From contig CM026387.1 in assembly GCA_014843695.1 (NCBI GenBank), forward strand, positions 65,099,708-65,163,707: a DNA stretch of 64,000 nt. The letters are read 5' to 3'. This DNA comes from Archivesica marissinica. Lineage: Eukaryota > Mollusca > Bivalvia > Venerida > Vesicomyidae. The notes under the pieces are model-generated. The model ran no database searches, was not told the DNA's origin, and worked only from the letters and a program-made list of their open reading frames with translations. The position numbers were made by a program, and so were the translations under genes. Below, in pieces: positions 6,422 through 54,575 of this stretch (its first letter is position 1; every line of letters begins with the position of its first letter).

Positions 6422-9400
6422 CTGATAACACAGATATAAAATTCTTCATTCACCGTGGTTCTGACGGGGCTCAGACTCACAACCTATTATTTACAAGGTG
6501 AATCCATTACACAGCAGTTTGATTGGTTGTTCTATTACTGAAGATGCATTGTGTGTTTTACGTTTATTTATCGTCGCTACTGGTTGACATTATGAGCGAC
6601 GCCTCCTGAAGAGATTAGTCATTTTAGATTTTTGGAGGATAGTGCAATGATACAGACAGAGAGCCATTCCAGAGTCTCCTCTGGTTCTTTTACGTGCACG
6701 GTGTAAAGCACCGACACAAGACCTCAGTTTAATGTCTCATCTGAAAGACTGTTAATTTTATTATGGTCAGGTGGGGATCGAACCTGCGATCCCTGGATTA
6801 CCAGTCCAGCGTGTTACCACTGGACTACAGATCCATCTGTAGAAGATGCATATTGCATGACAATGCATTGGATAACATGTTTACATCCCCGCGAGGGGTT
6901 CGACGTTAGAGGAAGATAGGATATGATGTGTGCTTACCGGTATACATGTACACTGTCGATTGTTCAATCAATCATTATATTCCATTTTAAATGTGATTTT
7001 AAATAATATAACAACAACATCATATATATTCATTGCTGGCATGCTACATCCAGGTACATATAGGTTATATATAATACATCAACTGCAGTGAACATATGTT
7101 ATATTTATATTTCGGGTTTTACGCCTGCATCAGCACCATTTCGGGCTATATCGCCGGCAGGCAGTTTACCTAACAACACCTTTCCTGGACAGGCTCCAGC
7201 GGTTAACCAGTACTTGGGTGCACCAACCTCCGTAAGAAACTGCCAACTTTTTCATATAAATGAGACACGGCCTGAGCGTGGCTCAAACCCGTGACCATCA
7301 GTGATGATAGGTTACAGCGGTATACAAGTCAGCGACCATAACCACTCGACCACAGAGGCGGACAACTGCAATTAACAAGGGACATACTAAATGTTACTGC
7401 AGTGAATATTAAATTTGAATGTAATCTGCATCATATCTTACCGCAGACAGTCGGTATCAAAGTCTAGGCTTGGCGAGGACAGCACACCTAGAGCACACAA
7501 CTGTAAATGCAAATCACAAATAAAAATTGTTATTCACAAATTAAACATAATCCCATACTCCACCATGTATGCATTCATAGTCATACAGCATAGTCCATTG
7601 GTGAAAACATATATAAATAGTCATACAGCATAGTCCATTGGTGAAAATATATACAATAGTAATACAGCATAGTCCATTGGTGAATAACTGTATAGTCATA
7701 CAGCATAGTCCATTGGTGAAAATATATACAAATAGTAATACAGCATAGTCCATTGGTGAAAACATATATAAATAGTCATACAGCATAGTCCATTGGTGAA
7801 AACATATATAAATAGTCATACAGCATAGTCCATTGGTGAAAATATATACAATAGTAATACAGCATAGTCCATTGGTGAATAACTGTATAGTCATACAGCA
7901 TAGTCCATTGGTGAAAATATATACAAATAGTAATACAGCATAGTCCATTGGTGAAAACATATATAAATAGTCATACAGCATAGTCCATTGGTGAAAACAT
8001 ATATAAATAGTCATACAGCATAGTCCATTGGTGAAAATATATACAATAGTAATACAGCATAGTCCATTGGTGAATAACTGTATAGTCATACAGCATAGTC
8101 CATTCAAATAGTCATACAGTATAGTCCATTGGTGAAAATATATACAAATAGTCATACAGCATAGTCCATTGGTGAAAATATATACAAATAGTCATACAGC
8201 ATAGTCCATTCAAATAGTCATACAGCATAGTCCATTGGTGAAAATATATACAAATAGTCATACAGCATAGTCCATTGTTGAAAATATATACAAATAGTCA
8301 TACAGCATAGTCCATTGTTGAAAATATATACAAATAGTCATACAGCATAGTCCATTCAATAATAGTAATACAGCATAGTACATTGGTGAAAATATACAAA
8401 TAGTAATACAGCATAGTACATTGGTGAAAATATATACAAATAGTCATACAGCATAGTCCATTGGTGAACATATATACAAATAGTAATACAGCATAGTCCA
8501 TTGGTGAAAATATATACAAATAGTAATACAGCATAATCCATTGGTGAAAATATATACAAATAGTCATACAGCATAGTCCATTGTTGAAAATATATACAAA
8601 TAGTCATACAGCATAGTCCATTGGTGAAAATATATACAAATAGTCATACAGCATAGTCCATTGTTGAAAATATATACAAATAGTCATACAGCATAGTCCA
8701 TTGGTGAAAATATATACAAATAGTCATACAGCATAGTCCATTGTTGAAAATATATACAAATAGTCATACAGCATAGTCCATTGTTGAAAATATATACAAA
8801 TAGTCATACAGCATAGTCCATTGTTGAAAATATATACAAATAGTAATACAGCATAGTCCATTGTTGAAAATATATACAAATAGTCATACAGCATAGTCCA
8901 TTGGTGAAAATATATACAAATAGTCATACAGCATATAATCCATTGGTGAATAACTGTATAAATAGTCATACAGCACAGTCCATTGTTAACAGTGACAGTG
9001 TATTTTAACTATTTTCGGACAATCATGAACAGTTGGTTATAAAGAAATATATTCTAATGAATTTGTTTAGTCTGTAGTTTTTAATTTTGACAGCAAACAG
9101 AAACTAACCGGAAATTTATACGAAAACTATTTCTTATTACGGACGTTCATACTAGCATAGGTGGTTGTGTGGTTGTGTAATGTAGAGAAATGAGGCTCCC
9201 GAAAGGGGCAGCTAAAATGAATTAAATTTGATAACAAATACTATACATGTATTAGCCAATGGAAATCATAAAAGAAAAAGAAGATTTGTCTTCAATAGTA
9301 TAATATTAGTTCGAGTGGTTATTCAATAGTATTTTATTTCATCGAGTGGTCACAGAAATATCTAATTCCACTCGTGGACATACAAATTTCGGTGACAATG

Positions 9401-12400
9401 ATGAAATAAACCCTATCTTACACTAATAAACACACAATATCCTCTATATCTTTGATCCTAAAGATTTCATTATGCGATGTAATTTCTCATATCATTTATT
9501 ACTACCAACCGCCTTATCAGCAGGAACTGCTCTATCTAGGTCCTCATCTGGGGTGCAATACAATGTGAGACATCGGTCAGTTACTGCCCCTGAATAGTCC
9601 ATAACAGTAGATAGGTTCTATTAAGTGTTTTCCTCTGTTGTTATTTGCATACAATGTAAGACATCGGTCAGTTACTGCCCCTGAATACTCACTAAAAGTA
9701 GATAGGTCCTACTAAGTGTTTTCCTCTGTTTTTATCGTTGTTTCCTTTGCATAACATGCTAGCAGTTGTATTACACTATAGCTTTATATGATTATTAAAT
9801 TACTATATCTCGACAGATCTCCTACAGTATATGCAATGGGTACTTATTTGTAAAACAATGCTATCGGGTATACATTAATTAATTTGATAAAATCACAATT
9901 ATCATACCGCAACATCTGGTTAGGGAATAACAGTAAAAACAAAGGATTCTAATTAAAAGGACCTATTCACATTTTGGAATTTAATCAGACTTTATCTGTG
10001 TAATAGAAAATTAGAGATGTCTCTCATTGGATGATAGATAGATACATTTTTTCCTTCAAATTCCATTTTTGTACCCAATGACAATATAAGCATAATTTAC
10101 CTGATAAGCCAGTGCACACTTGCCCACAGCAAACTGAGCAGTATTAGTGCGGTCGAGACAATCCACACAGTTTGTTCTCACTATGCCAGTCTGTTTACTC
10201 CCGGTGGACACTTTGTAGCCTTGCACTCCCTCAAATCTATAGAAATAGATACATACTATAAATTATCTAACCAAAACGCATGCTTTAACATTGAACTGTT
10301 AAGACATAAAGGAATATTTTTAATACTATAAATAGCTTCTTTTTTTTACGTTTATTTATCGTCGCTACCAGTTGCTATTAGCTTCAGACGGGGGGATTGA
10401 ACCTGCGATCCCTGGATTACAAGTCCAGCGTGTTACCACTGGACTACAGTTCCGTCTGTGTGCATAATATTTAAAAGAATAAATCAAATATTATAATTGT
10501 ACATGTATTATGTAAACAATAAACAATATTAAATCAATATTTTTGAGTTTTTATCCTCAATAAAAGTGAGTCACAATGGTTAGGAAATTTGGGGGTTTGT
10601 CTTACAAATATACAAGAAACACTGTAATTAAGGCAAAATCTGGCATACGTTAGGCACCACCTGGCATGTTACCTGCTTTACTACTGAGGTAATAATATAG
10701 AGTAGGCATCATTCTTTTTTTTTTTTTTTTGGGGGGAGCTACCAGAAGTAGCCCGCTTATTTTTTCATAGTATAAATTACAGTTATTTTACAAGAATCTA
10801 TAGATACTACATACTAATATATATACAAATGCATTTATTAATTTTTATATAGAGAGAAGAAATTAGGTTTGAAAGTAAGACGGATATGTAGTCCAGTGGT
10901 AACACGCTGGACTGGTAATCCAGGGATCGCAGGTTCGATCCCCCGTCTGACCCTAATAAAATTAACAGTCTTTCAGATGGGACTTTAAACCAAGGTTTCA
11001 TGTCGGTGCTGTACACTGTGCACGTAAAACAACCAGAGGAGACTCTGGAATGGGTCTCTGTCTGTATCATTGCACTATCCTCCAAAACTCTAAAATGACT
11101 AATCTCTTTGGCAGGCGTCACTCATATGGGCAACCTGTAGCGATGATAAATAAACGTAAAAGCACTTTGAAAGTAAGATAGCAGGAGAAGAGATGTAAAG
11201 TAGGCATCATTCTTGCTAGTGCTATTCAATAACAAACCAGGCACAGTTGATTTAATATCACATTATTTTATGTAAAATAAGAAATGCTTTAACACAAGCA
11301 AACATAAATAAAGTAACTGCCATACTCTTCACTATGCCAAATTTCCTCTTTTATGCTCGGTGAATGGAAAAAGAAGCCCGTCTGCTTCACGCAGTACTTC
11401 GAGATGCCAGCTAGTCTGTCCAACACATTATTGCTCTTTCTGTAGTAAACAAAACAATAAGTAACAAAAGTACACACTTCCCTTCCTACATTTTTTAAGT
11501 TGTGTTGGGTTTCATCAAGGGCTTCGTTGCATAAATTAGTAAAGATAAACCCTTCATGTGGTGCAGTTGAAATGATTGCATTCAAGATGGTCACAAAATA
11601 GATCACGACAATTATATTGATATTGCGACAATTATATCGATATTGCGACAATTATATCAAAATTGCAACAATTATATCGATATTGCGACAATTATATTGA
11701 TATCGCGACAATTATATCAATAGCGCGACAATTATATATCGATATTATGACAATTATATCAAAATCGCGACAATTATATCAATATCGCGCCAATTATATA
11801 TCGATATTGTGACAATTATATCGATAGCGCGACAATTATATCGATATTGTGACAATTATATCAGCATTGCGACAATTATATCAATAGCGCGACAATTATA
11901 TCGATATTGCGACAATTATATCAATATCGCGACAACTATATCGATATTGCGACAACTATATATCGATATTGCGACAATTATATCGATATCGCGACAACTA
12001 TATATCGATATTGCGACAATTATATCGACATCGCGACAATTATATATCGATATTGCGACAATTATATCAATATCGCGGCAATTATATCGCGACAATTATA
12101 TATCGATATTGCGACAACTATATCAATATGGCGACAATTATATCAATATCGCGACAATTATATATCGATATTGCGACAATTATATCAATATAGCGACAAT
12201 TATATCGATATTGCGACAATTACATATCAATATTGTGACAATTATATCAATATCGCGACAATTATATTGATATTGCGATAATTATATCAATATTGCGACA
12301 ATTATATCAATATTGCGACAATCATATCGATATCGCGACAAGTATATATTGATATTGCGACAATTATATCAATATCGCGACAATTATATCAGTATTGCGA

Positions 12401-18400: not shown

Positions 18401-21400
18401 CTCGACAGTGCCTCGCCAAAGCTATTTTTCTCCGACTCGCCTAATAAATTAAAATTTATAAGACAGTAACCTAATATTCTATTTATCCTACATTCTGAGT
18501 GTGCACCCGACACAAAAACAAACAAATTAGCCATGACAGCTTACAAACTCTTTTTGTTTATTTACAAACCGTAATCTGGGCCATAAAAGTAGTCCGTTAC
18601 GAAAGCTTTATTAGGCACTGACTAATAAAGCAAAATTTATTAGGCAGGCCGTTTTTGTACGTTATTTCGCATGAAGGTTGGATAAAAGAAAATATGTGAT
18701 GGCTGTATTAACTGAATACAAGCAAAATTATGTGATAAATATAATTATCGTATGTAGATATATCATATTTTATTTTATTCTTACTTTTTGGTATAATGTG
18801 CCATATCAAAGCCAATGTAGAGCATCTGTTTGTCTGGAGGTAGGAACTGGTTGAGGTATGACTTGCATTCCTTATATTCATCGCACAGTTGACTCTCGTG
18901 TCGACGTTTCTCCCGTCTCTGAAATATGTGTGCAATAACTAGAACTGAACATATGTACAGTAACTGAACATATATGCAATAACTGAACATATCTGCTAGA
19001 ATTATAACTGAACATATATGTAATAACTGAACATATATGCTAGAATTAAAACTGAACATATATGTAATAACTGAACATATATGCTAGAATTATAACTGAA
19101 CATATATGTAATAACTGAACATATATGCTAGAATTATAACTGAACATATATGTAATAACTGAACATATATGCTAGAATTATAATTGAACATATATGTAAC
19201 AACTGAACACATATGCAATAACTGAACATATATGCTAGAATTATAACTGAACATATATGTAATAACTGAACATATATGCTAGAATTATAATTGAACATAT
19301 ATGTAACAACTGAACACATATGCAATAACTGAACATATATGCAATAACTGAACATATATGCAATAACTGAACACATATGTAATAACTGAACATATATGCT
19401 AGAATTATAACTGAACATATATGTAATAACTGAACATATCTGCTAGAATTATAACTGAACATATATGTAATAACTGAACATATATGCTAGAATTAAAACT
19501 GAACATATATGCAATAACTGAACATATATGCTAGAATTATAATTGAACATATATGTAACAACTGAACATATATGCTAGAATTATAATTGAACATATATGT
19601 AACAACTGAACACATATGCAATAACTGAACATATATGCAATAACTGAACATATATGCAATAACTGAACACATATGCTAGAATTATAATTGAACATATATG
19701 CAATAACTGAACATATATGCAATAACTGAACATATCTGCTAGAATTATAACTGAACACATATGTAATAACTGAACATATATGCTAGAATTATAACTGAAC
19801 ATATATGCAATAACTGAACACATGTAATAACTGAACATATCTGCTAGAATTATAACGGAACACATATGTAATAACTGAACATATATGCTAGAATTATAAC
19901 TGAACATATATGCAATAACTGAACACATATGTAATAACTGAACATATCTGCTAGAATTATAACTGAACATATATGCAATAACTGAACATATATGCTAGCA
20001 TTATAACTGAACATATATGCAATAACTGAACATATCTGCTAGAATTATAACTGAACATATATGCAATAACTGAACATATATGCTAGCATTATAACTGAAC
20101 ATATATGCAATAACTGAACATATCTGCTAGAATTATAACTGAACACATATGCAATAACTGAACATATATGCTAGCATTGTAACTGAACATATATGCAATA
20201 ACTGAACACATATGTAATAACTGAACATATCTGCTAGAATTATAACTGAACACCTATGTAATAACTGAACATATATGCTAGAATTATAACTGAACATATA
20301 TGCAATAACTGAACATATATGCTAGAATTATAACTGAACAGATATGTAATAACTGAACACATATGCAATAAATATAACAGAACATAACACATATATGCAA
20401 TAATTATAACAGAATATATGTACAATAACTGAACACATATGCAATAACTATAACAAAACATAACACATATGCAATAATTATAACAGAATATATGTACAAT
20501 AACTGAACACATATGCAATAACTATAACAGAACATAACACATATGCAATAATTATAACATAATATATGTACAATAACTGAACACATATGCAATAATTATA
20601 ACAGAATATATGTACAATAACTGAACACATATGCAATAATTATAACAGAATATATGTACAATAACTGAACACATATGCAATAACTATAACAAAACATAAC
20701 ACATATGCAATAATTATAACAGAATATATGTACAATAACTGAACACATATGCAATAACTATAACAGAACATAACACATATGCAATAATTATAACATAATA
20801 TATGTACAATAACTGAACACATATGCAATAATTATAACAGAATATATGTACAATAACTGAACACATATGCAATAATTATAACAGAATATATGTACAATAA
20901 CTGAACACATATGCAATAATTATAACAGAACATAACACATATGCAATAGGTATAACAGAATATATGTACAATAACTGAACACATATGCAATAACTATAAC
21001 AGAACATAACACATATGCAATAATTATAACATACTATATGTACAATAACTGAACACATATGCAATAATTATAACAGAATATATGTACAATAACTGAACAC
21101 ATATGCAATAATTATAACAGAATATATGTACAATAACTGAACACATATGCAATAACTATAACAGAACATAACACATATGCAATAATTATAACAGAATATA
21201 TGTACAATAACTGAACACATATGCAATAACTATAACAGAATATATGTACAATAACTGAACACATATGCAATAACTATAACAGACCATAACATATATGCAA
21301 TAAATATAACAGAATATATGTACAATAACTGAACACATATGCAATAATAATAACAGAACATAACATATATGCAATAATTATAACAGAATATATGTACAAT

Positions 21401-24400
21401 AACTATAACTGAGCATATGTACAATAACCCAAATACAATAACTGAACAATTACATTATGTGCATTATGTACATTTTTCTGCAGTATAGTGATAAACGTTG
21501 AACAAAAATGTTGTAACCAATAATGCTGTAGGACTAGGAACTTTGAAAATATACTCTGTACAATTATGATATCTGTACCTGTTACAGTGTACGGCCTGTT
21601 GCACCTTCACACACTGGAGAGAGCCACTTAGTCACTATGTAGGGCAGACTTGAACCCTTGTATTGTCTCTGCGCAGACCACCCTATTGTTCAGATGGTTC
21701 CACCCACGAACAATTTTCACAAAGAATGAGTTTCTTAATATATCAAGAGATATTATTGTCGAGTACGAAATTTGCTGTTGATTAAACCATTTGCTCCTTC
21801 TAGATCTTCATTTTGAGGAAGCGCACTATTGCGTCATTAGGATTGTATTATTTAATCCATTTCAACAAAATAGTATTAAAATACACAATATGACCATTAA
21901 ATACAACATATTTTATACTGGGCCAGTGCATCTAACTGGACAACATTGTCCATGAAAATTGTTTTTGTTTTATGGAGAAATGGGGCCATGAGGGGGGGGG
22001 GGGCGAAGTCAGGGTCCCTAGGGGCGACTATTTCGCCAAAGTCACACTCTAGAATGAGCCCTGCAATATACAATCTTACCTTGACAAGGTTGAGCAATAA
22101 CAGAGGTGATCCATATCTATGTAAGCATTTGTTGAAGTGCATTCCGGCTGTATGGAAGTATGGGTCTCGTTGATCCACTGAAATAATTGACAGTAATACG
22201 TTAATAAATAGTAACGTTACAATTTGTGACGCGGTGGTCGTGTCGTTGTGAATGGTAGTCGGACAGTAACACGTTAATAAATAATAATGTTACAATTTGT
22301 GACGCGGTGGTCGTGTCATTGTGAATGGTAGTCGGACAGTAACACGTTAATAAATAGTAACGCTACAATTTGTGACGCAGTGGTTGTGTCGTTGTGAATG
22401 GTAGTCGGACAGTAACACGTTAATAAATAATAACGTTACAATTTGTGACGCGGTGGTCATGTTGTGAATGGTAGTCGGACAGTAACACGTTAATAAATAA
22501 TAACGTTACAATTTGTGATGTGGTGGTCGTGTCGTTGTGAATGGTAGTCGGACAGTAACACGTTAATAAATAATAACGTTACAATTTGTGACGAGGTGGT
22601 CGTGTCGTTGTGAATGGTAGTCGGACAGTAACACGTTAATAAATAATAATGTTACAATTTGTGACGTGGTGGTCGTGTCGTTGTGAATGGTAGTCGGACA
22701 GTAACACGTTAATAAATAGTAACGTTACAATTTGTGACGCGGTGGTCATGTTGTGAATGGTAGTCGGACAGTAACACGTTAATAAATAATAACGTTACAA
22801 TTTGTGACGAGGTGGTCGTGTCGTTGTGAATGGTAGTCGGACAGTAACACGTTAATAAATAATAACGTTACAATTTGTGACGAGGTGGTCGTGTCGTTGT
22901 GAATGGTAGTCGGACAGTAACACGTTAATAAATAGTAACGTTACAATTTGTGATGCGGTGGTCGTGTGGTTGTGAATGGTAGTTGGACAGTAATACGTTA
23001 ATAAATAGTAACGCTACAATTTGTGATGCGGTGGTCATGTCGTGAATGGTAGTCGGACAGTAACACGTTAATAAATAGTAATGTTACAATTTGTGATGTG
23101 GTATTGCATACTGGTTTTTGGCAAGATTGTGTAATATTATATTGCATACTGGTTTTTGACAAGATTGTGTAATATTATATTGTATACTGGTTTTTGGCAA
23201 GATTGTGTAATATTATATTGCATACTGGTTCTTGGCAAGATAGTGTAATGTTATATTGCATACTGGTTTTTGACAAGATTGTGTAATCTTATAATGTATA
23301 CTGGTTTTGACAAGATTGTGTAATATTATATTGTATACTGGTTTTGACAAGATTGTGTAATATTATAATGCATACTGGTTTTTGACAAGATTGTGTAATA
23401 TTATAATGCATACTGGTTTTTGACAAGATTGTGTAATATTATAGTTATTATTATATTATCGGGTCCAAAACTTCCGTTCGGTGACGAGTTTACATCAGGC
23501 CGAGTTACTTTTTTTTAGTTGTGTCGTAATAAATGTAATCCCCACATTGTCGGAGTCGGGTTATTCGATAATATTATTGTTTCTGTACGAGTCCGTATGA
23601 TAGACCATATGAGTAGGAAAACTATATTTCCAGTTGGGTAATTATATAGTATATATAAATAACTGGAAATACATCTTTTCAACAAATACTTCCATCCAGT
23701 TAGTCCATGGTGGTCACAAGAGTATAATAGTATAGGCCTATTTACTTGTTCTACATATATGTTGAAGCAATTTATATATTTTATAACGTATATGCAGGAC
23801 TAGTGATACTTGGCGCAGGACGAGTGGACATTTTTGGGTTTTGGGTACTGATCCTGCAGGACGAGTGTGAAATTTGAAAATGTTCGTCCCCTGGCTATGT
23901 CACTATTTTAATATAAATTCTGCATTGCATAACTGGTTTTGTCACACGTTTATAACAATTTCTTACATTGTATAACTGGTTTTGTCACACGTTTATAACA
24001 ATTTCTTACATTGTATAACTGGTTTTGTCACACGTTTATAACGATTTCTTACATTGTATAACTGGTTTTGTCACACGTTTATAATGATTTCTTACATTGT
24101 ATAACTGGTTTTGTCACACGTTTATAACGATTTCTTACATTGTATAACTGGTTTTGTCACACATTTATAACAATTTCTTACATTGTATAACTGGTTTTGT
24201 CACATGTTTATAATGATTTCTTACATTGTATAACTGGTTTTGTCACATGTTTATAATGATTTCTTACATTGTATAACTGGTTTTGTCACACATTTATAAT
24301 GATTTCTTACATTGTATAACTGGTTTTGTCACACGTTTATAACGATTTCTTACATTGTATAACTGGTTTTGTCACACGTTTATAATGATTTCTTACATTG

Positions 24401-27400
24401 TATAACTGGTTTTGTCACACGTTTATAACGATTTCTTACATTGTATAACTGGTTTTGTCACACATTTATAACAATTTCTTACATTGTATAACTGGTTTTG
24501 TCACATGTTTATAATGATTTCTTACATTGTATAACTGGTTTTGTCACATGTTTATAATGATTTCTTACATTGTATAACTGGTTTTGTCACACATTTATAA
24601 TGATTTCTTACATTGTATAACTGGTTTTGTCACACATTTATAATGATTTCTTACATTGTATAACTGGTTTTGTCACACGTTTATAACGATTTCTTACATT
24701 GTATAACTGGTTTTGTCACACGTTTATAACGATTTCTTACATTGTATAACTGGTTTTGTCACACGTTTATAACGATTTTTTACATTGTATAACTGGTTTT
24801 GTCACAGGTTTATAATGATTTCTTACATTGTATGACTGGTTTTGTCACAGGTTTATAATGATTTCTTACATTGTATAACTGGTTTTGTCACACATTTATA
24901 ATGATTTCTTACATTGTATAACTGGTTTTGTCACACGTTTATAATGATTTCTTACATTGTATAACTGGTTTTGTCACACGTTTATAATGATTTCTTACAT
25001 TGTATAACTGGTTTTGTCGCACGTTTATAATGATTTCTTACATTGTATAACTGGTTTTGTCACAGGTTTATAATGATTTCTTACATTGTATAACTGGTTT
25101 TGTCACACGTTTATAATGATTTCTTACATTGCATAACTGGTTTTGTCACACGTTTATAATGATTTCTTACATTGTATAACTGGTTTTGTCACACGTTTAT
25201 AACAATTTCTTACATTGTATAACTGGTTTTGTCACACGTTTATAATGATTTCTTACATTGTATAACTGGTTTTGTCACACATTTATAATGATTTCTTACA
25301 TTGTATAACTGGTTTGTCACATGTTTATAATGATTTCTTACATTGTATAACTGGTTTTGTCACACATTTATAATGATTTCTTACATTGTATAACTGGTTT
25401 TGTCACACATTTATAATGATTTCTTACATTGTATAACTGGTTTTGTCACACGTTTATAATGATTTCTTACATTGTATAACTGGTTTTGTCACACATTTAT
25501 AATGATTTCTTACATTGTATAACTGGTTTTGTCGCACGTTTATAATGATTTCTTACATTGTATAACTGGTTTTGTCACACGTTTATAATGATTTCTTACA
25601 TTGTATAACTGGTTTTGTCACACGTTTATAATGATTTCTTACATTGCATAACTGGTTTTGTCACACGTTTATAATGATTTCTTACATTGTATAACTGGTT
25701 TTGTCACACGTTTATAACAATTTCTTACATTGTATAACTGGTTTTGTCACACGTTTATAATGATTTCTTACATTGTATAACTGGTTTTGTCACACGTTTA
25801 TAATGATTTCTTACATTGTATAACTGGTTTTGTCACACATTTATAATGATTTCTTACCTTGTATAACTAGTTTTGTCACACATTTATAACGATTTCTTAC
25901 ATTGCATAACTGGTTATGTCACACATTTATAATGATTTCTTACATTGTATAACTGGTTTTGTCACACATTTATAATGATTTCTTACATTGTATAACTGGT
26001 TTTGTCACATGTTTATAATGATTTCTTACATTGTATAACTGGTTTTGTCACACATTTATAATGATTTCTTACATTGTATAACTGGTTTTGTCACACATTT
26101 ATAATGATTTCTTACATTGTATAACTGGTTTTGTCACACGTTTATAATGATTTCTTACATTGTATAACTGGTTTTGTCACACATTTATAATGATTTCTTA
26201 CATTGTATAACTGGTTTTGTCGCACGTTTATAATGATTTCTTACATTGTATAACTGGTTTTGTCACAGGTTTATAATGATTTCTTACATTGTATAACTGG
26301 TTTTGTCACACGTTTATAATGATTTCTTACATTGCATAACTGGTTTTGTCACACGTTTATAATGATTTCTTACATTGTATAACTGGTTTTGTCACACGTT
26401 TATAATGATTTCTTACATTGTATAACTGGTTTTGTCACACGTTTATAATGATTTCTTACATTGTATAACTGGTTTTGTCACACATTTATAATGATTTCTT
26501 ACATTGTATAACTGGTTTTGTCGCACGTTTATAATGATTTATTACATTGTATAACTGGTTTTGTCACATGTTTATAATGATTTCTTACATTGTATAACTG
26601 GTTTTGTCACACATTTATAATGATTTCTTACATTGTATAACTGGTTTTGTCACACATTTATAATGATTTCTTACATTGTATAACTGGTTTTGTCACACGT
26701 TTATAACGATTTCTTACATTGTATAACTGGTTTTGTCACACGTTTATAATGATTTCTTACATTGTATAACTGGTTTTGTCACACGTTTATAATGATTTCT
26801 TACATTGTATAACTGGTTTTGTCGTACGTTTATAATGATTTCTTACATTGTATACTGGTTTTGTTACAGGTTTATAATGATTTCTTACATTGTATAACTG
26901 GTTTTGTCACAGGTTTATAATGATTTCTTACATTGTATAACTGGTTTTGTCACACATTTATAATGATTTCTTACATTGTATAACTGGTTTTGTCACACGT
27001 TTATAATGATTTCTTACATTGTATAACTGGTTTTGTCGCACATTTATAATGATTTCTTACATTGTATAACTGGTTTTGTCACACGTTTATAACGATTTCT
27101 TACATTGTATAACTGGTTTTGTCACACGTTTATAATGATTTCTTACATTGTATAACTGGTTTTGTCACACGTTTATAATGATTTCTTACATTGTATAACT
27201 GGTTTTGTCACAGGTTTATAATGATTTCTTACATTGTATAACTGGTTTTGTCACACGTTTATAATGATTTCTTACATTGTATAACTGGTTTTGTCACACA
27301 TTTATAATGATTTCTTACATTGTATAACTGGTTTTGTCACACGTTTATAACGATTTCTTACATTGTATAACTGGTTTTGTCACACGTTTATAATGATTTC

Positions 27401-30400
27401 TTACATTGTATAACTGGTTTTGTCACACGTTTATAATGATTTCTTACATTGTATAACTGGTTTTGTCACAGGTTTATAATGATTTCTTACATTGTATAAC
27501 TGGTTTTGTCACACGTTTATAATGATTTCTTACATTGTATAACTGGTTTTGTCACACATTTATAATGATTTCTTACATTGTATAACTGGTTTTGTCACAC
27601 ATTTATAACGATTTCTTACATTGTATAACTGGTTTTGTCACACGTTTATAACAATTTTTTACATTGTATAACTGGTTTTGTCACAGGTTTATAATGATTT
27701 CTTACATTGTATAACTGGTTTTGTCACAGGTTTATAATGATTTCTTACATTGTATAACTGGTTTTGTCACACATTTATAATGATTTCTTACATTGTATAA
27801 CTGGTTTTGTCACACGTTTATAACGATTTCTTACATTGTATAACTGGTTTTGTCACACGTTTATAACGATTTTTTACATTGTATAACTGGTTTTGTCACA
27901 GGTTTATAATGATTTCTTACATTGTATGACTGGTTTTGTCACAGGTTTATAATGATTTCTTACATTGTATAACTGGTTTTGTCACAGGTTTATAATGATT
28001 TCTTACATTGTATAACTGGTTTTGGCACCATGTTGGAGATATCCTGTGACCAGTACACTGGTATAGACCCCCTCATCTGTACAAACGATGCAATCTTGCA
28101 CTTATGTAGATGTGTAGTTGAGGTATCATACACGATCTGTTCAGTCTCAACTTCATTCGCTACAGCACCCTGTATGTCAGTGAAATAAAAGTCTGTACAT
28201 TGGTTTATTCACTAAGTGTTTTATTTTCATTCAAATGAAACATAAATATAGGATGTTACATGAGTGAGGATATGAAGTAAAGAACTTGTACTAAGGAAGT
28301 CATGATAGCGCAGTGGTAGCACGTTTGCTTCAAGTGCGAAAGGCCTGGAGTTCGAACCTCGCTGGAGCCGTTACGGTTGTGCCCCTAGGCAAGGCATTTA
28401 AATTCCACACTGCCTCTTCTCTCTCCCTCGTGGCGATGGATTCCATCAGGAATGAGGTCTCGAGAGTGATTAATATCAGTTATAAGAACTTGTTCGAGCT
28501 AAAATAAATTTGTATAATAATAATACTAAATGTTAGGTATGTCAATGGATATAATGGGAGTAGAAACCGTAAATAAAATATGAAAGAATGAAACTAAAAC
28601 ATGGGACGTTAAACCGAGGTGTCGGTGCTTTACACCGTGCACGTAAAAGAACCAGAGGAGATTCTGGAATGGGTCTCTGTCTGTATCAGGCACTATCCTC
28701 CAAAATCGAAAATAACTAATCTCTTCAGGAGGCGTCGCTCATATGGGCAACCGGTAGCGACGATAAATAAACGTAAAAAGCTAAAACAGATCTAAAACAT
28801 GTACATGTATTTTAATCTTATTACCTTAGTGGCACTAATAGTATATTTGCAGGTACACACCAAGTATGGGTGGGTTGGGTTAACTGACTGCCTTGGGTGG
28901 TGTGGTGGCATACTTGCTTGAGGGAATTGCAGTTCATGCATTCTGGGACATTTCATGACTTTTCCACGACCGCTAGGACACGTTTTTGAAATGGATGAAC
29001 CAATATTTGTGCGGATGATGAAAGGATGTTGTACGGCATATCAAATTTGCACGGAACTTTCCTTAACCCATTCAACACCAAGTAACTGAAATGGACTGGT
29101 CCATGATCAGTTTTTAGACCAATAAATTAATACGAAAATTACATTTGGACCAGTTCATTTATCAAAATGGGTAATTTTGTCTAAAATAGTAATATTACTG
29201 GCAAAAAGTGCAGATCCTGATGAGACGGCTCGTCACGAGCCGGCTCATCTGGATCTACACTTTTTGTAAGCCTATTTAGAGGTATGTGGTGTTGAAAGGG
29301 TTAATTGAACAAGAATCCAAATTCCATGACTATCAATGACCTTTTCAGAAAAGGAGGAAAATTCCAGGACATTTAAAATGACCTTTTCAGAAAAGGAGGC
29401 AAATTCCATGATTTCTAGACATGCCATCATTTTTCCATATTCCATGACTTTCTTGGAATTAAAGGACCTGTGGGAACTCAGGCCATTATAGGGGAAAGGC
29501 TGAGAGATCATGGATGCCTGCATCCACTAGTACAATTGTAATGATCAAAATGCCATAAGTTAAATGTAGAAATCTGCTGCACACAAAGGGATCTTACCTG
29601 ACTGTTGGCACCTCTTTTGAGAAATCTTGTACCCGCAAACTCATTGGATCTCCTGGCTATAAGTGTGATATACACAGACTTGCCAAATATATACAGATCT
29701 TCATAATCGTTATGGAATCAATTATTCTAAATATCTACAGATCTTAAACCAAATATTCTAAATATATACAGATCTTAAACCAATTATTCTAAATATCTAC
29801 AGATCTTAAACATTGTTACGGAATCAATTATTCTAAATATCTACAGATCTTAAACATTGTTACGGAATCAATTATTCTAAATATCTACAGATCTTAAACA
29901 TTGTTACGATATCAAATATTCTAAATATCTACAGATCTTAAACATTGTTACGGAATCAATTATTCTAAATATCTACAGATCTTAAACATTGTTACGATAT
30001 CAAATATTCTAAATATCTACAGATCTTAAACATTGTTACGATATCAAATATTCTAAATATCTACAGATCTTAAACATTGTTACGATATCAAATATTCTAA
30101 ATATCTACAGATCTTAAACATTGTTACGATATCAAATATTCTAAATATCTACAGATCTTAAACATTGTTACGATATCAAATATTCTAAATATCTACAGAT
30201 CTTAAACATTGTTACGGAATCAATTATTCTAAATATCTACAGATCTTAAACATTGTTACGATATCAAATATTCTAAATATCTACAGATCTTAAACATTGT
30301 TACGATATCAAATATTCTAAATATCTACAGATCTTAAACATTGTTACGATATCAAATATTCTAAATATCTACAGATCTTAAACATTGTTACGATATCAAA

Positions 30401-33400
30401 TATTCTAAATATCTACAGATCTTAAACATAGTTACGGAATCAATTATTCTAAATATATACAGATCCTAAACCAATTAACGGTATTCTAAATATCTACAGA
30501 TCTTAAACATTATTACGGAATCAATTATTTCATACTATAAGTTTTTCATATTTTTGGTGTGGCTCCTAACTCCATCTTCTAACGTTGTTCAAACTTGTGG
30601 CCCGGAAGAATTGTATTATCATACTATTTTCTGTTATGTTATATTTATGTTATATTTCGGGTTTTACGCCTGCATCAGCACAATTTCGGGCTATATCGCC
30701 GGCGGGCAGTTTACCTAACAACACCTTTCCTGGGCAGGCTCCAGCGGTTAACCAGTACTTGGGTGCACCAACCTCCGTAAGAAACTGCCAACTTTTTCAT
30801 ATAAATGAGACACGGCCTGAGCGGGACGCAAACCCGTGACCATCAGTGATGATAGGTTACAGTGGTATACAAGTCAGCGACCATAACCACTCGACCACAG
30901 AGGCGGACACTATTTTCTGTACTTATATAATGCTGAATGCAATCAAATATGATTAGACTAAAACACCAGACAATGCCAGTATCTCAGGTTATTCTCACCT
31001 ATTTAAATAAAACAATGTATGAGCAGAAGTGTTACTATCCCTATTTTAACCCACAAGAAATACAAAATGTTCATATTCCCCTATTTTGGAAAATCATTTT
31101 CCCCATTAATAAAACTAGGCCCTTATTTCGGAAAACAAGTCCTGATTATTTTCACATAAATTAAGGAACAGGTGTTTAACCATTTGCACGCTAGCGGCAG
31201 ATAAAAATCACTTTTGCAAACAGCATAAAGCCAGATCAGACGGCACACACCGTGCCGTCTGATCAGGCTCTATGCTGTTTGTTAATCGGATAGTGGAGCT
31301 GAAACACTTGGCTGAATGGCAAACAACATAGATCCTGGACATATATTGTTTGCAAATATGATTTTATTTACTCAGCAGGCAAAGGGTTAAGGTAGACCTT
31401 CAAACTAGAGAGAGGTTTAAGGAACAGAAGAGAACTTAGTTTACACTGCAACTGTTTCAGTAAATGCTATATCTCCAACAATCTTCACATAAGCCAAAGT
31501 CGTGATAGCACAGTGGATGCGAGTTCGTTAAAGAAATTTTAAATCCATATCCACATTGTGTATTCTGTCTCCCGCATGGCAGAATGAGATCACGAGAGCG
31601 GTTAATCTAATTCTTTGTGGAAGTGGTGATAGCTAGTGGATGTGCGTTCGCTTCAGGTGCGAAAGGTCCGGAGTTCGAGCCTCGCTGGAGCCGTTACGAT
31701 TATGCCCTTCGGCAAGGCATTTAAATTCCATGTTGCCTCTTCTCTCTCCCTCATGGCGATGGATTCCATCAGGAATGAGGCCTCGAGAGTGATTAATATA
31801 AGTTATTATTATTATACCAGATTTCTTGAGCGCCCTTTTCATGTAAAAATACACGTTCAAGGGCGCTGTTGTAAGTTGTAACAACTTGTTTCGCAATCGA
31901 GCTAAAATAAATTTGTATAAACTAATTATCCCAATCTACCAACTAGATTAAGCCCTGGCAAAGGATACTACACTGCGCGATGAAGCCGTAGACAAGATGC
32001 AACACCCAGTCCTGGTGAGCCTCATTTTCCAACATGTCTGACAGGTGCTTGTTCCAGATATACCGAGTCTCTGCTTTCGCCTTCACCCCAAATACTTGAC
32101 CTTCTTAAATAAACAATGTTTGAAATTGACATATCATTCAATGATATATTTATTGATTATTTGTTTTTAAGTATCATGTTACGATAAAAGGATGAAGTCA
32201 CAATAAAGTGACAATAAAATGATGAAGTGACGAGTTCGCACCATTCACACGGTAATAAAATACTATTGTTGCAATATAAGTATAATGTTGTTAACCCATT
32301 TGATTCTGGATACCGTTCAAACAGTATTTGCAAAGAACATAGAGCCAGATCAGCCGCCAATGAACATGCTGTCTGATCAGGCTCTATGCTATTCAGATGA
32401 TCTTGCTAAGACACTTGGCTATGTAGCAAACAACATGGATCCTGACCAGCACTGATAGGCTGATCTGGATCTATGTTGTTTGCAAAAGCCTTTAAATGTA
32501 TCCAGAATGAAATGGGTTAATATCTGTTCCGGGTTATTTATGTAAAATTTCATTTTATTTATGTAAAATTTCATCTTCCAAGAATAAATAGTTTATAGAT
32601 GTTTATGCATGTAATGGAAAATGTCATGGATTTTTCCTTTTCATTATATCTAACAAAGACATATGAAAGAATATGAAATACAATGAAAGAGATAAGACAC
32701 AACTACTCCACCCACCCATCCAACAATCAGTATACTGACCCATTCCTCCCACCGACTCACCCGTCAGCTCAAAATCCATGCATGTACACTCTTTCGTCTC
32801 AATAAACTTAATGTGCAATATATTGACCGAGTGTGTGTTTTACGTTTATTTACCGTCGCTACCGGTTACCCATATGAGCGACGCCTCCTGAAGAGATTAG
32901 TCATTTTAGATTTTTCGAGGATAGTGCAATGATACAGACAGAGACCCATTCCAGAATCTCCTCTGGTTCTTTTACGTGCACGGTGTACAGCACCGACACG
33001 AGACCTCGGTTTAACGTCCCATCTGAAAGACTGTTAATTTTATTAGGGTCAGACGGGGGGATCGAACCTGCAACCCCTGGATTACCAGTCCAGCATGTTA
33101 CCACTGGACTACAGATCCGTCTGTATATTGACCGATATTATGGATTAACACTATAACAATAATATCAAAATTCCTACCAAACAATAAGTAATTTCATGAA
33201 ATGGATTCTATTGTACATATTAATTGTTTGTTTTGAGGCTTTAATTCGCACCAACAGCTTAGGTTATATGGCGACTCCACTATTATGGCAGTCTTCACGA
33301 AACATTGCCAGAGTTTGTCTGACACCGGTCAGACAAATGATTAAAATGCACTTAAACTTTCAATATATTTTGTCTGACCAAAGGATTTTTTGTCTGACAT

Positions 33401-36400
33401 GTCAGGCGGTCCTACGGATTTCGGGAAGACTGATATGGCGACTCCATTATTCGAGCAGACGGGCACACAGGCAGAACCACCGACCTTCTGAAAGCCAGCT
33501 GGATAGCTTCCTCACATGTGATCATATGACATCCCCAGCTGTATTCAACCCTACAGTGATAAGGAGAGACCAGTAACCGCTCGGACACGGAGGCCCCCTG
33601 CAAAATATTCAAAACCGTATTTCAGTATGTAATAAGTTTCTTAATGAATATAGCCATCTGATATACCTTGTGCACTGGTTGACTTGGTATTGCCATGGGT
33701 TTTGTCTTCAGTGGGGATTTTGTATTGTGGTTTTACGGCTGGTTCCATGTTATACTGCAGAGTGTGTGTGAGATCATAGCTATAGCTGGAAAACAATCCA
33801 ATAATGAGATCCCATTTTGTGTGTGTTTAACCCTTTCAACACCACAGACCTCTCAATAGGCTTACAAAAAAGTGTAGATCCAGATGAGCCGGCTCATGAC
33901 GAGCCGTCTCATCAGGATCTGCACTTTTTGCCAGTGATATGACTATTTTTAGACATAATTACCCATTTTGATAAATGAACTTGTCCAAATGTGATTTTCT
34001 GATTCATTTATTGGTTTATGAATATCATGGACCAGTCCATGTGAGTTACTTGGTGTTGAATGGGTTAACTCTGCATGCTTTTTTTCCCCGGTTTATTTAT
34101 CGCTACCATATGAGCGACGCCTCCTGAAGAGATTAGTCATTTTAGATTTTTGGAGGATAGTGCAATGGTATAGAGAGAGACCCATTCCAGTCTCCTCTGG
34201 TTCTTTTACGTGCACGGTGTAAAGCACCGGCACGAAACCTCGATTTAACGTCCCATCTGAAACTGCTAATTTTATTATTGTCAGACGGGGGATTGAACCT
34301 GCGATCCCTGGATTATCACTGGACTACAGATCCTTGGGCGTCAGTAAATTGGGACCACTGACTTACCCTTGCACAGTCTACACCGTAACAATCTAATCAT
34401 AAGTCCAGGGCATGTCGATTTGCTTTCAGGCTAATTTGATAAATCCTAATACTTTTGACTACTATATTCAAAAATGCAGTAGTCATTTGGGCAAGTGATG
34501 TGCAATGGTAGTGTTCGCTTCAGGTGTGAAAGGCCCTTAATTCGAGCCCAGCTGTAGCAATTACGATTATGTCCTTATATAAGGCACTTAAATTCCACAT
34601 TTCCCTCCCTCGTGGCGATGGATTCCATCTAATCATCGGTTTCTTAGACTATCTCAATGTGCAGCACATTCTAATCATCAGTTCCTTAGACTATCTCATT
34701 GTGCAGCACATTCTAATCATCAATTCCTTAGACTATCTCATTGTGCAGCACATTCTAATCATCCGTTCCTTAGACTATCTCATTGTGCAGCACATTCTAA
34801 TCATCCGTTCCTTAGACTATCTCATTGTGCAGCACATTCTAATTATCCGTTCCTTAGACTATCTCATTGTGCAGCACATTCTAATCATCAGTTCCTTAGA
34901 TATCTCATTCCAAACATGTTTTATATCGAGTAAAATATGTTTGACAACCACATTAACCTCAACTTTCATGTCAAAATCCGCTTATGTATTTATTTACAAT
35001 GAGTTGCACACCAATATATTATAATGGAGGAGAATTATATAAGACTCTGTCTTTCATTCTAATCCTTTTTCTGTATTTTGTAAAATATGTTTAGACTAAG
35101 ATTAGTCTGTCTGATTAGCACAGTGGTTAGCGCGCTCACTTCTCACCAATGCAACCTGGGTTCGATCTTCGGACAAGGAAGTATGTGAGATGGTACGGTG
35201 GTCGCCAGAACGGATAGGTGGGTTTTCTCCGGGTACTCCAGTTTCCTCCCACACGAATGACCACATATACGCTTTCATCCGCGCCAACGAGAGTGATTAA
35301 TATAAGTTGTTAAAACTTGCTTCGCAATCATTGTAAAATAAATAAAGTTTAAACTTAAGATATTATAAGGAGCGAATGATTGGAAATTGTGATTATTGTC
35401 TTGTATTGCCATGTTTTCAACATTTATTTATAATGTTGAAGATGTGCACACTGTGATCAGGGATATTGTTAGTACAACCGCTCCCTGTAGTAGAAACAAC
35501 GACCTTCTGGATACTTTCCTTACATGAAAACACTTCCACCCGCCCAGTGGGATTCGAACCTACCGCGATGAGGTGCAAGGTGATTTAACGTCAACAACTG
35601 TGACCACTCATCCACGGAGGCCCCACAAATAAATTAAGGTTTAGCATATAATAACTGAATAGATTTGAATTAGGCTGTCCGATTAGCGCAGTGGTTAGTG
35701 TGCTCGCTTCTCACCAATGCAACCCGGGTTCGATCCTCGGACCGGGAAGTATGTGAGATGGTACGGTGGTCGCCAGATCGGATAGGTTGGTTTTCTCCGG
35801 GTACTCCGGTTTCCTCCCACACAAATGACCACATTAACGCTTTCATCTGCGCCAACGAGAGTGATTAATATAAGTTGTTAGAACTTGCTTTGCAATCGTA
35901 AAATAAATTAAGTTTTAAAAAATAGTTTTGAAGTTTTGACGAACCTTCAAACTGACATATACATCACTCTTCAATTTCAAATATATCTATTGCATTGTTT
36001 ATCCGATTCAATGTATTTTTTGTCTTTAAGCAGAATTACATATTATCATAGATTTGTTCATAATCGGTTGACATACATACCTAAAGTAGAAATTGCTGGA
36101 CAAGTCTACACTTTGAAACAATTTGACATATCTGAAATACGAAAAGGTACGTGCATTAGAATATCAGTTATATCTGTGGCAGTGGCACAGTGGTTAACAC
36201 ATAGGACTGCGAATCCAGGGATCGCAGATTCGATCCCTATCTGACCCTAATAATATTAACAGTCTTTCAAATGGGACTATAAACTGAGGTCTCATGTATC
36301 GGTGATATACACGGGGGCATGCAAAACAAGAGAGCCATGATGGCCCTGTATCACTGACCTGACTCCTATTTATACTTCGGGGTCACCATTTTAACACCTT

Positions 36401-39400
36401 TGAAAGTGCATTGAACATTAATGAATCTTACCAAATGTTGCTAAACTCCAAACTGTGGTTTGTGACAAGATTTTTGAAGAATATATGTTATTTTTAGACA
36501 GTGGCCATCTTTTATTCGCGACAATATCCACTGTAATCTGAAAAGGCTACACACATGAACTATAACTGCGAAACGATCATTTGACATTTCGGTAGCCTTC
36601 TTGGATGATTGCATCAGAGCGATCGCCTCGTCAATTTGATCTATTACATGACCATAATCGCCACGCCTATTTTTGATTGCTGGGTCGCTATTTGAACAAC
36701 ATTGAATGAGTATTGTACATCAATCATTCCAATCAAGATTTGTCAAATTCCGACTGGCTGTTCATGAGATTTTTTAATAATTTGTGCCATTTTTAGACGG
36801 GGGCCATCTTGAACTTCAGAGGAACTTTATTTTAACAACTTTGGAAAGGCTTCGCCCAAGGATCATACAAGTAGAGTTTCCTGAACATTGGTTAATTAGT
36901 TTGTGAAAAGAAGACGCTTGAAAACTCTCATAAAAGGTCAGCTACCCTTTTGATGGCCTTCTTGATGGTAAAATCCGGCTGACGGTTCATGAGAAGAATT
37001 TTTAAAGAATTTGTGCTATTTTTAGGCAGAGGCCATCTTGGATTACATAATGACAAGAATTTTAACAATTATGTAACCCCCCACCTACCCAAGTATCATG
37101 ATCATAAATGGTGGATATAAACCCAATGGTGACTGAGGAGAAGACTTTTGAAAATGTTCACGGATGACGACGGAGAGACACATTGCGGTAACAATACGTC
37201 ACATGACCTTTGCTCAGGTAGGCTAATAATATAGATCGAACATAAATGTGCATCTTAAATCTATTATTGATCGTGACATTTACTGTAATCTGCATATATC
37301 AACATGCTTACCTAAGTATATTTGTTGCTGCATTCCTGGGCTCAACTGGATGTATATATCTGACCCCGTCATTGGGTATCTACGGTATTACGTCGCTCCT
37401 GTCATACCTAGATACCTGGGCTCTTCTGGATGTATATATGTGACCCCATCTTTGGGTATCTACGGTATAACAGCACCTGTCATACCAACATACCTGGGTT
37501 CATCTGGATGTATATATCTCACCCGTCATTGGTATCTACGGTATAACATAGCTCCTGTCATACCAACATACCTGGGCTCATCTGGGTGTATATATCTCAC
37601 CCGTCATTGGGTATCTACGGTATAACATAGCACCTGTCATACCAACATACCTGGGTTCATCTGGGTGTATATATCTCACCCGTCATTGGGTATCTACTGT
37701 ATTACGTCGCTCCTGTCATACCAACATACCTGGGCTCATCTGGGTGTATATACCTGACCCCGTCATTGGGTATCTACTGTATAACAGCACCTGTCATACA
37801 AACATACCTGGGCTCATCTGGTGTATATATCTGTCCCCGTCATTGGGTATATACGGTATAACATAGCACCTGTCATACCAACATACCTGGGCTCATCTGT
37901 GTGTATATATCTCACCCAGTCATTGGGTATATACGATATAACATAGCACCTGTCATACAAACATACCTGGGCTCATCTGGGTGTAGATATCTGACCCCGT
38001 CATTGGGTATCTACGGTATAACATAGCACCTGTCATACCAACATTCCTGGGCTCAACTGGGTGTAGATATCTGACCCCGTCATTGGGTATCTACGGTATA
38101 ACATAGCACCTGTCATACAAACATACCTGGGCTCATCTACGGTATAACAGCACCTGTCATACCAACATACCTGGGCTCATCTGGGTGTAGATATCTGACC
38201 CCGTCATTGGGTATATACGGTATAACATAGCACCTGTCATACAAACATACCTGGGCTCATCTGGGTGTATATATCTCACCCGCCATTGGGTATCTACTGT
38301 ATAACATAACACCCGTCATACAAACATACCTGGGTTCATCTGGGTGTATATATCTAACCCGTCATTGGGTATCTACTGTATAACATAACACCAGTCATAC
38401 AAACATACCTGGGTTCATCTGGGTGTATATATCTAACCTCATCATTGGGTATCTACGGTATAACACAGCACCTGTCATACAAACATACCTGGGCTCATCT
38501 GAGTGTATATATCGGACCCCGTCTTTGGGTATATACGGTATAACACAGCACCTGTCATACCAACATACCTGGGCTCATCTGGGTGTATATATCTTCCCCC
38601 GAAATTGGATATATACGGTATAACATAGCACCTGTTATACAAACATACCTGGGCTCATCTGTGTGTATATATCTCACCCCGTCATTTGGTATATACGGTA
38701 TAACATAACACCTGTCATACCTACATACCTGGGCTCATCTGTGTGTATATATCTCACCCCGTCATTTGGTATATACGGTATAACATAACACCTGTCATAC
38801 CTACATACCTGGGCTCATCTGGGTGTATATATCTCACCCTGTCATTTGGTATATACGGTATAACATAACACCTGTCATACCTACATACCTGGGCTCATCT
38901 GGGTGTATATATCTCACCCCGTCATTGGGTATCTACGGTATAACATAGCACCTGTCATACCTACATACCTGGGCTCATCTGGGTGTAGATATCTCACCCC
39001 GTCATTGGGTATATACGGTATAACATAGCACCTGTCATACCTACATACCTGGGCTCATCTGGGTGTAGATATCTCACCCCGTCATTGGGTATATACTGCA
39101 TCACTGTGTCTTCTATCTTGTATATAGTATGGCTGCCAATCAGTGCCACCTTGCTTCTCTTCGTAATCAGCACCATATAATATCCTTCCAAAAACTTCAC
39201 AAAACCTGCGACACAAACAGTGAATCGACAATTATTCACTAATTTAACCCTTTTCCACATAGGAACTCCTCTCAACACGATTACAAATACCATGGACATA
39301 CGAGTACCGTAGTCAAACAAATAAACAACACCCATAATAAAATAGAAGTTATAACCGACTCTCTTTTTAATGTTTTCTCTCTTTTTTTATAGGATAAGTT

Positions 39401-53270: not shown

Positions 53271-54575
53271 ATCCCCGTCTGACCCTAATAAAATTAACAG
53301 TCTTTCAGATGGGACGTTAAACCGAGGTCTCGTGTCGGTGCTTTACACCGTGCACGTAAAAGAACCAGAGGAGGCTCTGGAGTGGGTCTCTTTCTGTATT
53401 ATTGCACTATCCTCCAAAATCTAAAATAACTAATCTCTTCAGGAGGCGTCGCTCATATGGGTAACCGGTAGCGACGATAAATAAACGTAAAACGCACAAT
53501 ACAGACAATAGCATATTGGGTAGCGAATATCTAGCCAACTTGGCAATGAGACCCTATATAATTGGGCATAGGTACATAGCATTGTGTAATAGCTATAAAA
53601 AAAAACACCACATATGACACTCAACAAGTGTTTACACCCTACTCTCCCCCGTCTGACCCTAATAAAAATAACAGTCTTTCAGGTGGGACGTTAAACCGAG
53701 GTCTTGTGTCGGTGCTTTACACCGTGCACGTAAAAGAACCAGAGGAGGCTCTGGAGTGGGTCTCTTTCTGTATTATTGCACTATCCTCCAAAATCTAAAA
53801 TAACTAATCTCTTCAGGAGGCGTCGCTCATATGGGTAACCGGTAGCGACGATAAATAAACGTAAAACGCACAATACAGACAATAGCATATTGGGTAGCGA
53901 ATATCTAGCCACCTTGGCAATGAGACCCTATATAATTGGGCATAGGTACATAGCATTGTGTAATAGCTATAAAAAAAACACCACATATGACACTCAACAA
54001 GTGTTTACACTCTACTCTCCCCCGTCTGACCCTAATAAAAATAACAGTCTTTCAGGTGGGACGTTAAACCGAGGTCTTGTGTCGGTGCTTTACACCGTGC
54101 ACGTAAAAGAACCAGAGGAGGCTCTGGAGTGGGTCTCTTTCTGTATTATTGCACTATCCTCCAAAATCTAAAATAACTAATCTCTTCAGGAGGCGTCGCT
54201 CATATGGGTAACCGGTAGCGACGATAAATAAACGTAAAACGCACAATACAGACAATAGCATATTGGGTAGCGAATATCTAGCCAACTTGGCAATGAGACC
54301 CTATATAATTGGGCATAGGTACATAGCATTGTGTAATAGCTATAAAAAACACCACATATGACACTCAACAAGTGTTTACACCCTACTCTCCCCCATCTGA
54401 CCCTAATAAAAATAACAGTCTTTCAGGTGGGACGTTAAACCGAGGTAAAAGAACCAGAGGAGACTCTGGAATGGGTCTCTCTCTCGCTCTGTATCATTGC
54501 ACTATCCTCCAAAAATCTAAAATGACTAATCTCTTCAGGAGGCGTCGCTCATATGGGCAACCGGTAGCGACGATA
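53271..54575 (+). repeat. 373-bp tandem repeat carrying a type 2 SINE body, about 3.5 units
   Basis: Each unit begins cccgtctgaccctaataaaa (starts near 53275, 53648, 54022, 54393), runs through the type 2 SINE body and 3' end (gacgataaataaacgtaaaa), then about 150 bp of older satellite (gcatattgggtagcgaatat, cattgtgtaatagctataaa). Units are nearly identical, so the amplification is recent. The fourth is shortened. It sits just upstream of FIG4. Confidence 0.93.

Follow-up and report, generated by a model that had tools for sequence, protein, structure and literature searches.

It is a matter of continuing debate how the spliceosome picks one donor site out of several identical ones. In the clam Archivesica marissinica, FIG4 raises this question within a single gene, as the end of exon 4 and the donor site that follows it recur, head to tail, along the next intron. 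We asked where these copies came from, and how the gene could carry them and still be spliced correctly. The window (the whole stretch of DNA analysed here, 64,000 bases with a G+C content of 34.9%) carries FIG4 on its minus strand, and the gene leaves it at the low end.

An earlier note on this DNA had named the host gene as FIG4, and the homology searches agree. A phmmer search matched PDB chain 7k1w_F (Fig4), the Pfam domain Syja_N was present in two of the four exon-bearing frames scanned, and tblastn with a human FIG4 query returned pieces from 53062 down to 6256. Fifteen exons were placed by hand using splice signals. The reading frame is continuous over all mapped junctions except that between exons 12 and 13 (10236-11318), where no canonical donor fits the phase; possibly a short exon was missed here, or the site is an unusual one. 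The joined protein is 85% identical to that of Mercenaria mercenaria, 84% to that of Ruditapes philippinarum and 78% to that of Mactra antiquata; Mercenaria and Mactra both belong to Venerida, and these identities place the host clam in Veneridae or close to it. All 14 mapped introns are longer than 1000 bases (the length of intron 12 is approximate), and those flanking exon 4 measure 1897 and 2917 bases. The donor of exon 7, at 31968, scored poorly when donor strengths were compared. Table 1 lists the features on which the argument depends.

Table 1. Coordinates of exons, splice sites and tandem arrays at the FIG4 locus, in positions of the window (slash, splice junction).
Feature	Position	Strand	Basis
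FIG4 exon 4 (length 157 bases; entry phase 1, exit phase 2)	39049..39205	-	Exon map with consistent phases; homology
Coding part of repeat unit (last 48 bases of exon 4)	39049..39096	-	Unit comparison
Authentic exon 4 donor, CAG/GTATGTAGG	39040..39051	-	Junction inferred from phases and protein alignment
Exon-4 donor-side array, 22 further donor-site copies (20 with GT) in intron 4	37331..39048	-	TRF, motif search
FIG4 exon 8; first ~14 bases inside third array	29598..29698	-	Exon map, BLAST
Exon-8 acceptor-side array, mostly 44-bp unit, AAG/ATCTGTAGATATTTAG; 17 spanning copies (BLAST), 19 (motif)	29699..30529	-	TRF, BLAST, motif
FIG4 exon 9; last 17 bases, AAAACCAGTTATACAAT, are the coding part of second array	28007..28169	-	Exon map
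Array on donor side of exon 9; unit of 43 bp (17 from exon, 26 from intron); 95 copies in intron, 94 spanning the junction (BLAST)	23923..28006	-	TRF, BLAST
38-bp array in intron 9, kin to exon-9 unit, donor GT lost	23102..23443	-	TRF, local alignment
73-bp array, end 11 bases short of the exon 10 acceptor, without exon bases	22189..23102	-	TRF, BLAST
Exon-11-side array, TRF end 12 bases upstream of exon 11; no exon bases	18931..21404	-	TRF, BLAST

We found that an 80-bp segment across the junction of exon 4 and intron 4 has been repeated into the intron, and that the exon holds the ancestral copy. Each unit consists of the last 48 bases of the exon and 32 intron bases including the donor, and the units lie head to tail on the minus strand. 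TRF placed 21.7 copies at 37331-39096, the exon part included; the range of 37310-39205 first given for the array was too wide, as it takes in the whole of exon 4 (39049-39205). A search for the donor-site motif CCCAGGTATGT, allowing up to two mismatches, recovered 23 sites including that of the exon, with first bases from 37340 to 39053 and a spacing of 78-80 bases, bar one truncated unit of 44 bases. Intron 4 thus holds 22 further copies, BLAST recovers 22 junction-spanning copies at this donor, and the structure and the count of about 23 in the earlier note are borne out. Its statement that each unit carries CCCAG/gtatgt is right for most units: 20 of the 23 share the donor 9-mer CAGGTATGT (CAG/GTATGT), and GT is kept in 21 (20 of the 22 intronic copies), but three variants occur once each (CAGGAATGT, CAGGTATCT and CAGGAATGC), two of them without GT. 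That every unit encodes the exon peptide proved incorrect. Over 15 whole codons the peptide is exact in only two of the 22 intronic units; seven units have an in-frame stop, seven an indel or truncation, and six replacements only. These stops and indels indicate that the intronic copies are free of coding constraint, and divergence from the exon copy is 7.2% in both the exon-like and the intron-like half, as expected if no such constraint applies. A higher-order repeat, to which a TRF period of 240 would correspond, was rejected, as identity is lower at a lag of three units (0.907) than at a lag of one (0.926).

The units nearest the exon had been described as the most exon-like and those farther away as more diverged. 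This is true of units 1-8, over which differences from the exon copy run from 0 to 9 (Spearman 0.93, P = 0.0007; the cut-off was picked post hoc), but over all 21 full-length units the identity gradient has a rho of 0.43 (P = 0.052), without any trend of divergence with distance in units 9-20 (rho = -0.16). Outward growth from the exon therefore fits the near part of the array only. For the exon-9 array (rho = 0.18, P = 0.09) no gradient is claimed. The edge of exon 4 probably still trades sequence with its array. Codon 141 of the exon (39066-39068) reads CTA (L) and is shared with four of 21 units, while the other 17 differ from it and have the consensus ATA (I); the closest clams (P0001-P0004) have T at this residue. 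Sequence exchange between the exon and its array, running either way, is the preferred reading of the CTA that they have in common, with independent mutation as the alternative.

Change events were also compared between parts of the units. In the exon-4 array, 71 fall in exon-derived and 42 in intron-derived sequence, as length predicts. In the exon-9 array, 12 fall in the 17 exon-derived bases and 62 in the 26 intron-derived bases (binomial P = 1e-5), a bias that is absent from the exon-4 array. Both donor arrays have fewer changes in the donor 9-mer than expected (3 versus 12.7 and 5 versus 15.5; binomial P = 0.0008 each), and, by minor-state frequency, none of the 80 windows of 9 bases in the exon-4 array varies less than the three over AG/GT. 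We nevertheless do not claim selection on the decoy donors. Column variability is uneven in the two donor arrays (variance/mean of 1.8 and 8.9), and circular shifts are weak despite the binomial deficit: windows at least as low as the donor 9-mer number 6 of 80 in the exon-4 array and 12 of 43 in the exon-9 array, and for the four junction bases the corresponding numbers are 13 of 80 and 14 of 43.

Use of a later donor would extend exon 4 by 80 to 1713 bases and, in silico, gives a premature stop at all 22 positions (two of which lack GT), as the earlier note had anticipated; its read-through of 18 residues before the stop was confirmed by translation, and the nonsense-mediated decay that it expected to follow is a prediction. 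Premature stops likewise follow from 89 of 89 exact decoys at exon 9 and 19 of 19 decoys at exon 8, again in silico. Scoring of the donors, which the note had proposed as a check, put 19 of the 22 exon-4 decoys level with the authentic donor, which itself ranks fourth of 15 in the gene. We considered whether the authentic donor is more open in the RNA while the decoys are hidden, and rejected this: predicted local folding left 21 of the 22 decoys more open than the authentic donor under both settings used (under one of them, the unpaired probability of the 9-mer was 0.0001 for the authentic donor and 0.0000-0.0585 for the decoys). Predicted RNA structure therefore does not explain the choice of donor. 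Nor can local sequence decide between the first two donors, since the authentic donor and the first decoy match without a difference over 83 bases (48 upstream, 35 downstream); position must. Among the 129 AGs of the exon-4 array we found no clear internal exon arising from pseudo-acceptors, and their pyrimidine fraction is at most 0.59, compared with 0.50-0.81 for the 14 mapped acceptors.

Position would favour the authentic site. In the accessible part of one study, the transition to exon definition is placed near an intron length of 250 nt, and when minigenes carried the donor CAG/guaagu twice, with introns of 365 nt, splicing went entirely to the upstream copy; the same text notes an overall preference for the downstream donor in the data not yet filtered for equal strength (PMC9225289). 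Since the mapped introns of FIG4 are longer than 1 kb, exon definition would be expected to apply, and the donor nearest the exon's own acceptor to be chosen.

The exon-4 array lies in a gene rich in such repeats, as 19 tandem arrays, whose units range from about 20 to 373 bases, make up about 56% of the window. By BLAST, three of 29 exon edges have junction-spanning copies, namely the exon 4 donor (22), the exon 9 donor (94) and the exon 8 acceptor (17). In the exon-9 array GT is kept in 94 of the 95 intronic copies, the far-end copy reading GC. At exons 10 and 11, array copies are confined to the intron side of the acceptor, with TRF ends 11-12 bases away, and by eye the exon-11-side array possibly reaches its acceptor. 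This array is rich in TTCAG (78 copies in 18919-21404 versus 2.3 expected from composition) and could serve as a natural test of acceptor choice. The 'second exon-edge array' of the earlier note therefore exists but understates the case: three arrays span an exon edge and two more end just short of acceptors.

Fifteen array units were compared with the exon edges, those at 53273 and 56066 being left out, and the five edge arrays scored far above shuffles. The array at 7577 was rejected as a decayed exon copy, its scores of 27 against the exon 8 acceptor and 25 against the exon 13 acceptor (shuffles reached 22 at the 95% point and 29 at most) being ascribed to chance. Intron 9 has arrays at both ends (the exon-9 array, and the 73-bp array near exon 10). 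The 38-bp array scored 34 in local alignment with the exon-9 unit, where the highest of 500 shuffles reached 21, and 29 with the exon 9 donor, where shuffles reached 25 at the 95% point and 37 at most. The acceptors of exons 2 and 6 each have two intron-side BLAST matches, at distant loci, which we took as dispersed repeats. An open frame in FIG4 intron 1 (52040-52657, plus strand) resembles the end of what is presumably a LINE-type reverse transcriptase protein. Four other frames, on both strands (32901-33137, 34093-34323, 53580-53798 and 53839-54171), share a 20-residue peptide or a near match to it, pointing to a dispersed element family; the last two sit in one 373-bp tandem array.

Several accounts of how the exon-4 array arose need to be weighed. 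If the unit were older than the exon, or if exon 4 ended in a later unit, the many occurrences of the unit in the intron would be readily understood. However, the peptide block at the end of exon 4 is conserved in 13 of 13 aligned FIG4 relatives (bivalves, a gastropod, a chiton, a lancelet and a bird) and is joined directly to the exon 5 peptide in distant FIG4s; the exon phases suit the first donor, and later donors yield stops. At the protein level no insertion was found at the exon 4/5 junction in these 13 relatives, and the one extra residue of Mya and Dreissena lies within the exon 4 block. Judged by this alignment, exon 4 is the source of the array, because the block runs into exon 5 peptide in distant relatives, and the true exon end lies in the first unit; copying from the exon, as the earlier note had it, stands, and the reverse has practically no chance of being correct. 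Exon 9, by its junction, is likewise taken to be the source of its own array, as PKPVIQLDQRDPY is identical in the window and in P0001-P0004, where it has no insertion. Tandem arrays are prone to assembly error, and the assembler might have made the array or its copy number. We regard this as highly improbable: between 0 and 10 substitutions, together with indels and one truncation, separate the units from the exon copy, so that the array does not consist of repeats of one read stretch, and arrays of like build stand at two other exon edges. A different proposal is that a process acting at splice junctions, such as breaks linked to transcription or splicing, starts duplications there, as a genome-wide feature of the clam. 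The earlier note had argued from recurrence against a one-off accident, but with arrays over 56% of the window about one exon-edge overlap is expected by chance, which weakens that argument. In 4000 simulations of random placement with overlap of up to 50 bases, a mean of 1.08 arrays spanned an edge (three or more, P = 0.084) and a mean of 1.42 touched one (five or more, P = 0.008); with overlap of up to 25 bases, a limit exceeded by the real 48-base case, P was 0.011 for three spanning and 0.0005 for five touching. The argument thus fares poorly on the three spanning arrays alone and better on all five of the 19 arrays that touch an exon edge, and the excess over random placement is modest, suggestive and unproven. 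The three spanned edges out of 29 and the arrays of intron 9, at both ends and with a decayed relative of the exon-9 unit, are in keeping with edge-targeted seeding, which is also compatible with the neutral account preferred below; but the data come from a single gene, and both the list of arrays and the 15-base limit were chosen manually. Such seeding is possible, though we lean against it.

Other accounts would give the copies a function in splicing. Under regulated unproductive splicing, controlled use of later donors would produce stop-containing mRNAs that are destroyed, and copy number would tune FIG4 output. The premature stops at every decoy of the three exons, the decoys that score as the authentic donor does and the binomial deficit of donor 9-mer changes all agree with this. 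As in known cases coupled to nonsense-mediated decay, the alternative sites would insert premature stops; unlike in those cases, use and regulation of the FIG4 sites are hypothetical. Moreover, a stop within tens of bases is common to almost any read-through into an intron, the conservation of the donors is weak by circular shift, exon definition favours the upstream donor (PMC9225289, accessible part), and comparable arrays in lancelets are said, in the accessible parts of two reports, to leave splicing undisturbed (PMC3087553, PMC3902484). We consider this account improbable. It is very improbable that the array corrects itself, a second splicing step removing the leftover piece and restoring the correct mRNA, with the units as ratchet points that hide errors. 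As exon-4 units end in CCCAG followed by GTATGT, choice of a later donor would leave a GT...AG piece, GT is kept in 21 of 23 copies, and the AG/GT windows are the least variable by minor-state frequency. By counted events, however, 6 of 80 windows are as low, no AG of the array has a pyrimidine stretch above 0.59, and the units at exon 9 end in AAT and could not work in this way.

We think it probable that the exon-4 array is instead a near-neutral exon-edge minisatellite of the type called 'mirage', silent through long introns and choice of the nearest donor. An initial single duplication of the junction segment, in a gene with introns crowded with tandem arrays, would have been followed by growth through slippage or unequal exchange. 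Selection would preserve the terminal copy as the working exon while the remaining copies drift. As published competition experiments suggest, long introns would cause the exon to be recognised as a unit and its authentic donor to be taken; the decoys would then be silent, and the array would cost little. Exon 9 would be protected in this way too, and exon 8 by the mirror-image argument; their arrays are of the same build and so count in favour of the mirage account. Exon-edge arrays would persist mainly beside long introns, and the arrays themselves would lengthen introns. Against this account, the minigenes set two donors in competition, whereas the clam gene has 23 sites, and their study notes the downstream preference given above. 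Predicted folding does not favour the authentic donor either, and the deficits in the donor 9-mer and in the exon half of the exon-9 units could hint at selection, though the circular-shift test of the donor is weak.

Mirages were described in the lancelet genes for Adh3, the globins BflGb6 and BflGb9 and troponin C, with imperfect examples in PGBD5; in the accessible parts of these reports they vary in length, reportedly do not disturb splicing or mRNA, and are proposed as seeds of new introns (PMC3087553, PMC3902484). Like these, the FIG4 arrays are minisatellite-like copies of an exon-intron boundary, on the donor or the acceptor side, and many keep splice signals; the exon-4 array has both the head-to-tail repetition and the unit that spans the boundary. 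They differ, as far as those texts go, in occurring in a bivalve FIG4, in their copy numbers (22, 94 and 17-19, compared with 3 and 6 in BflGb6 haplotypes) and in that three spanning arrays lie within one gene. By structure the FIG4 arrays fit the mirage kind; they are known here from the DNA of one haplotype. Intron gain by tandem duplication, as in the potato RdRp gene (PMC4974935, accessible part), also starts from a duplication across an exon-intron boundary that multiplies splice signals, but in FIG4 no new intron from a duplicated AG/GT was found: the exon 4 and 5 peptides join as in the 13 relatives, compared at the protein level only. In human duplicated genes, variable internal tandem repeats lie at exon-intron boundaries and may give rise to novel introns (PMC2812944, accessible part). 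The FIG4 minisatellites resemble these in lying at exon edges, but the human repeats alter the exon/intron structure of recent paralogues, whereas that of FIG4 is, by its sequence, unchanged.

A search of titles and abstract openings, with subscription papers mostly outside its scope, found no exon-edge array in a mollusc. The FIG4 array would be a large mirage from a phylum for which we found no earlier case, extending mirages from lancelets to molluscs. With 20 identical 9-base donors behind one exon, it offers a natural test of the rule of proximity across the exon among many competitors. It also suggests that long introns allow exon-edge arrays to be tolerated, and gives a hint that the edges of coding exons may join in the turnover of repeats, a possible route by which repeats could alter proteins or seed introns.
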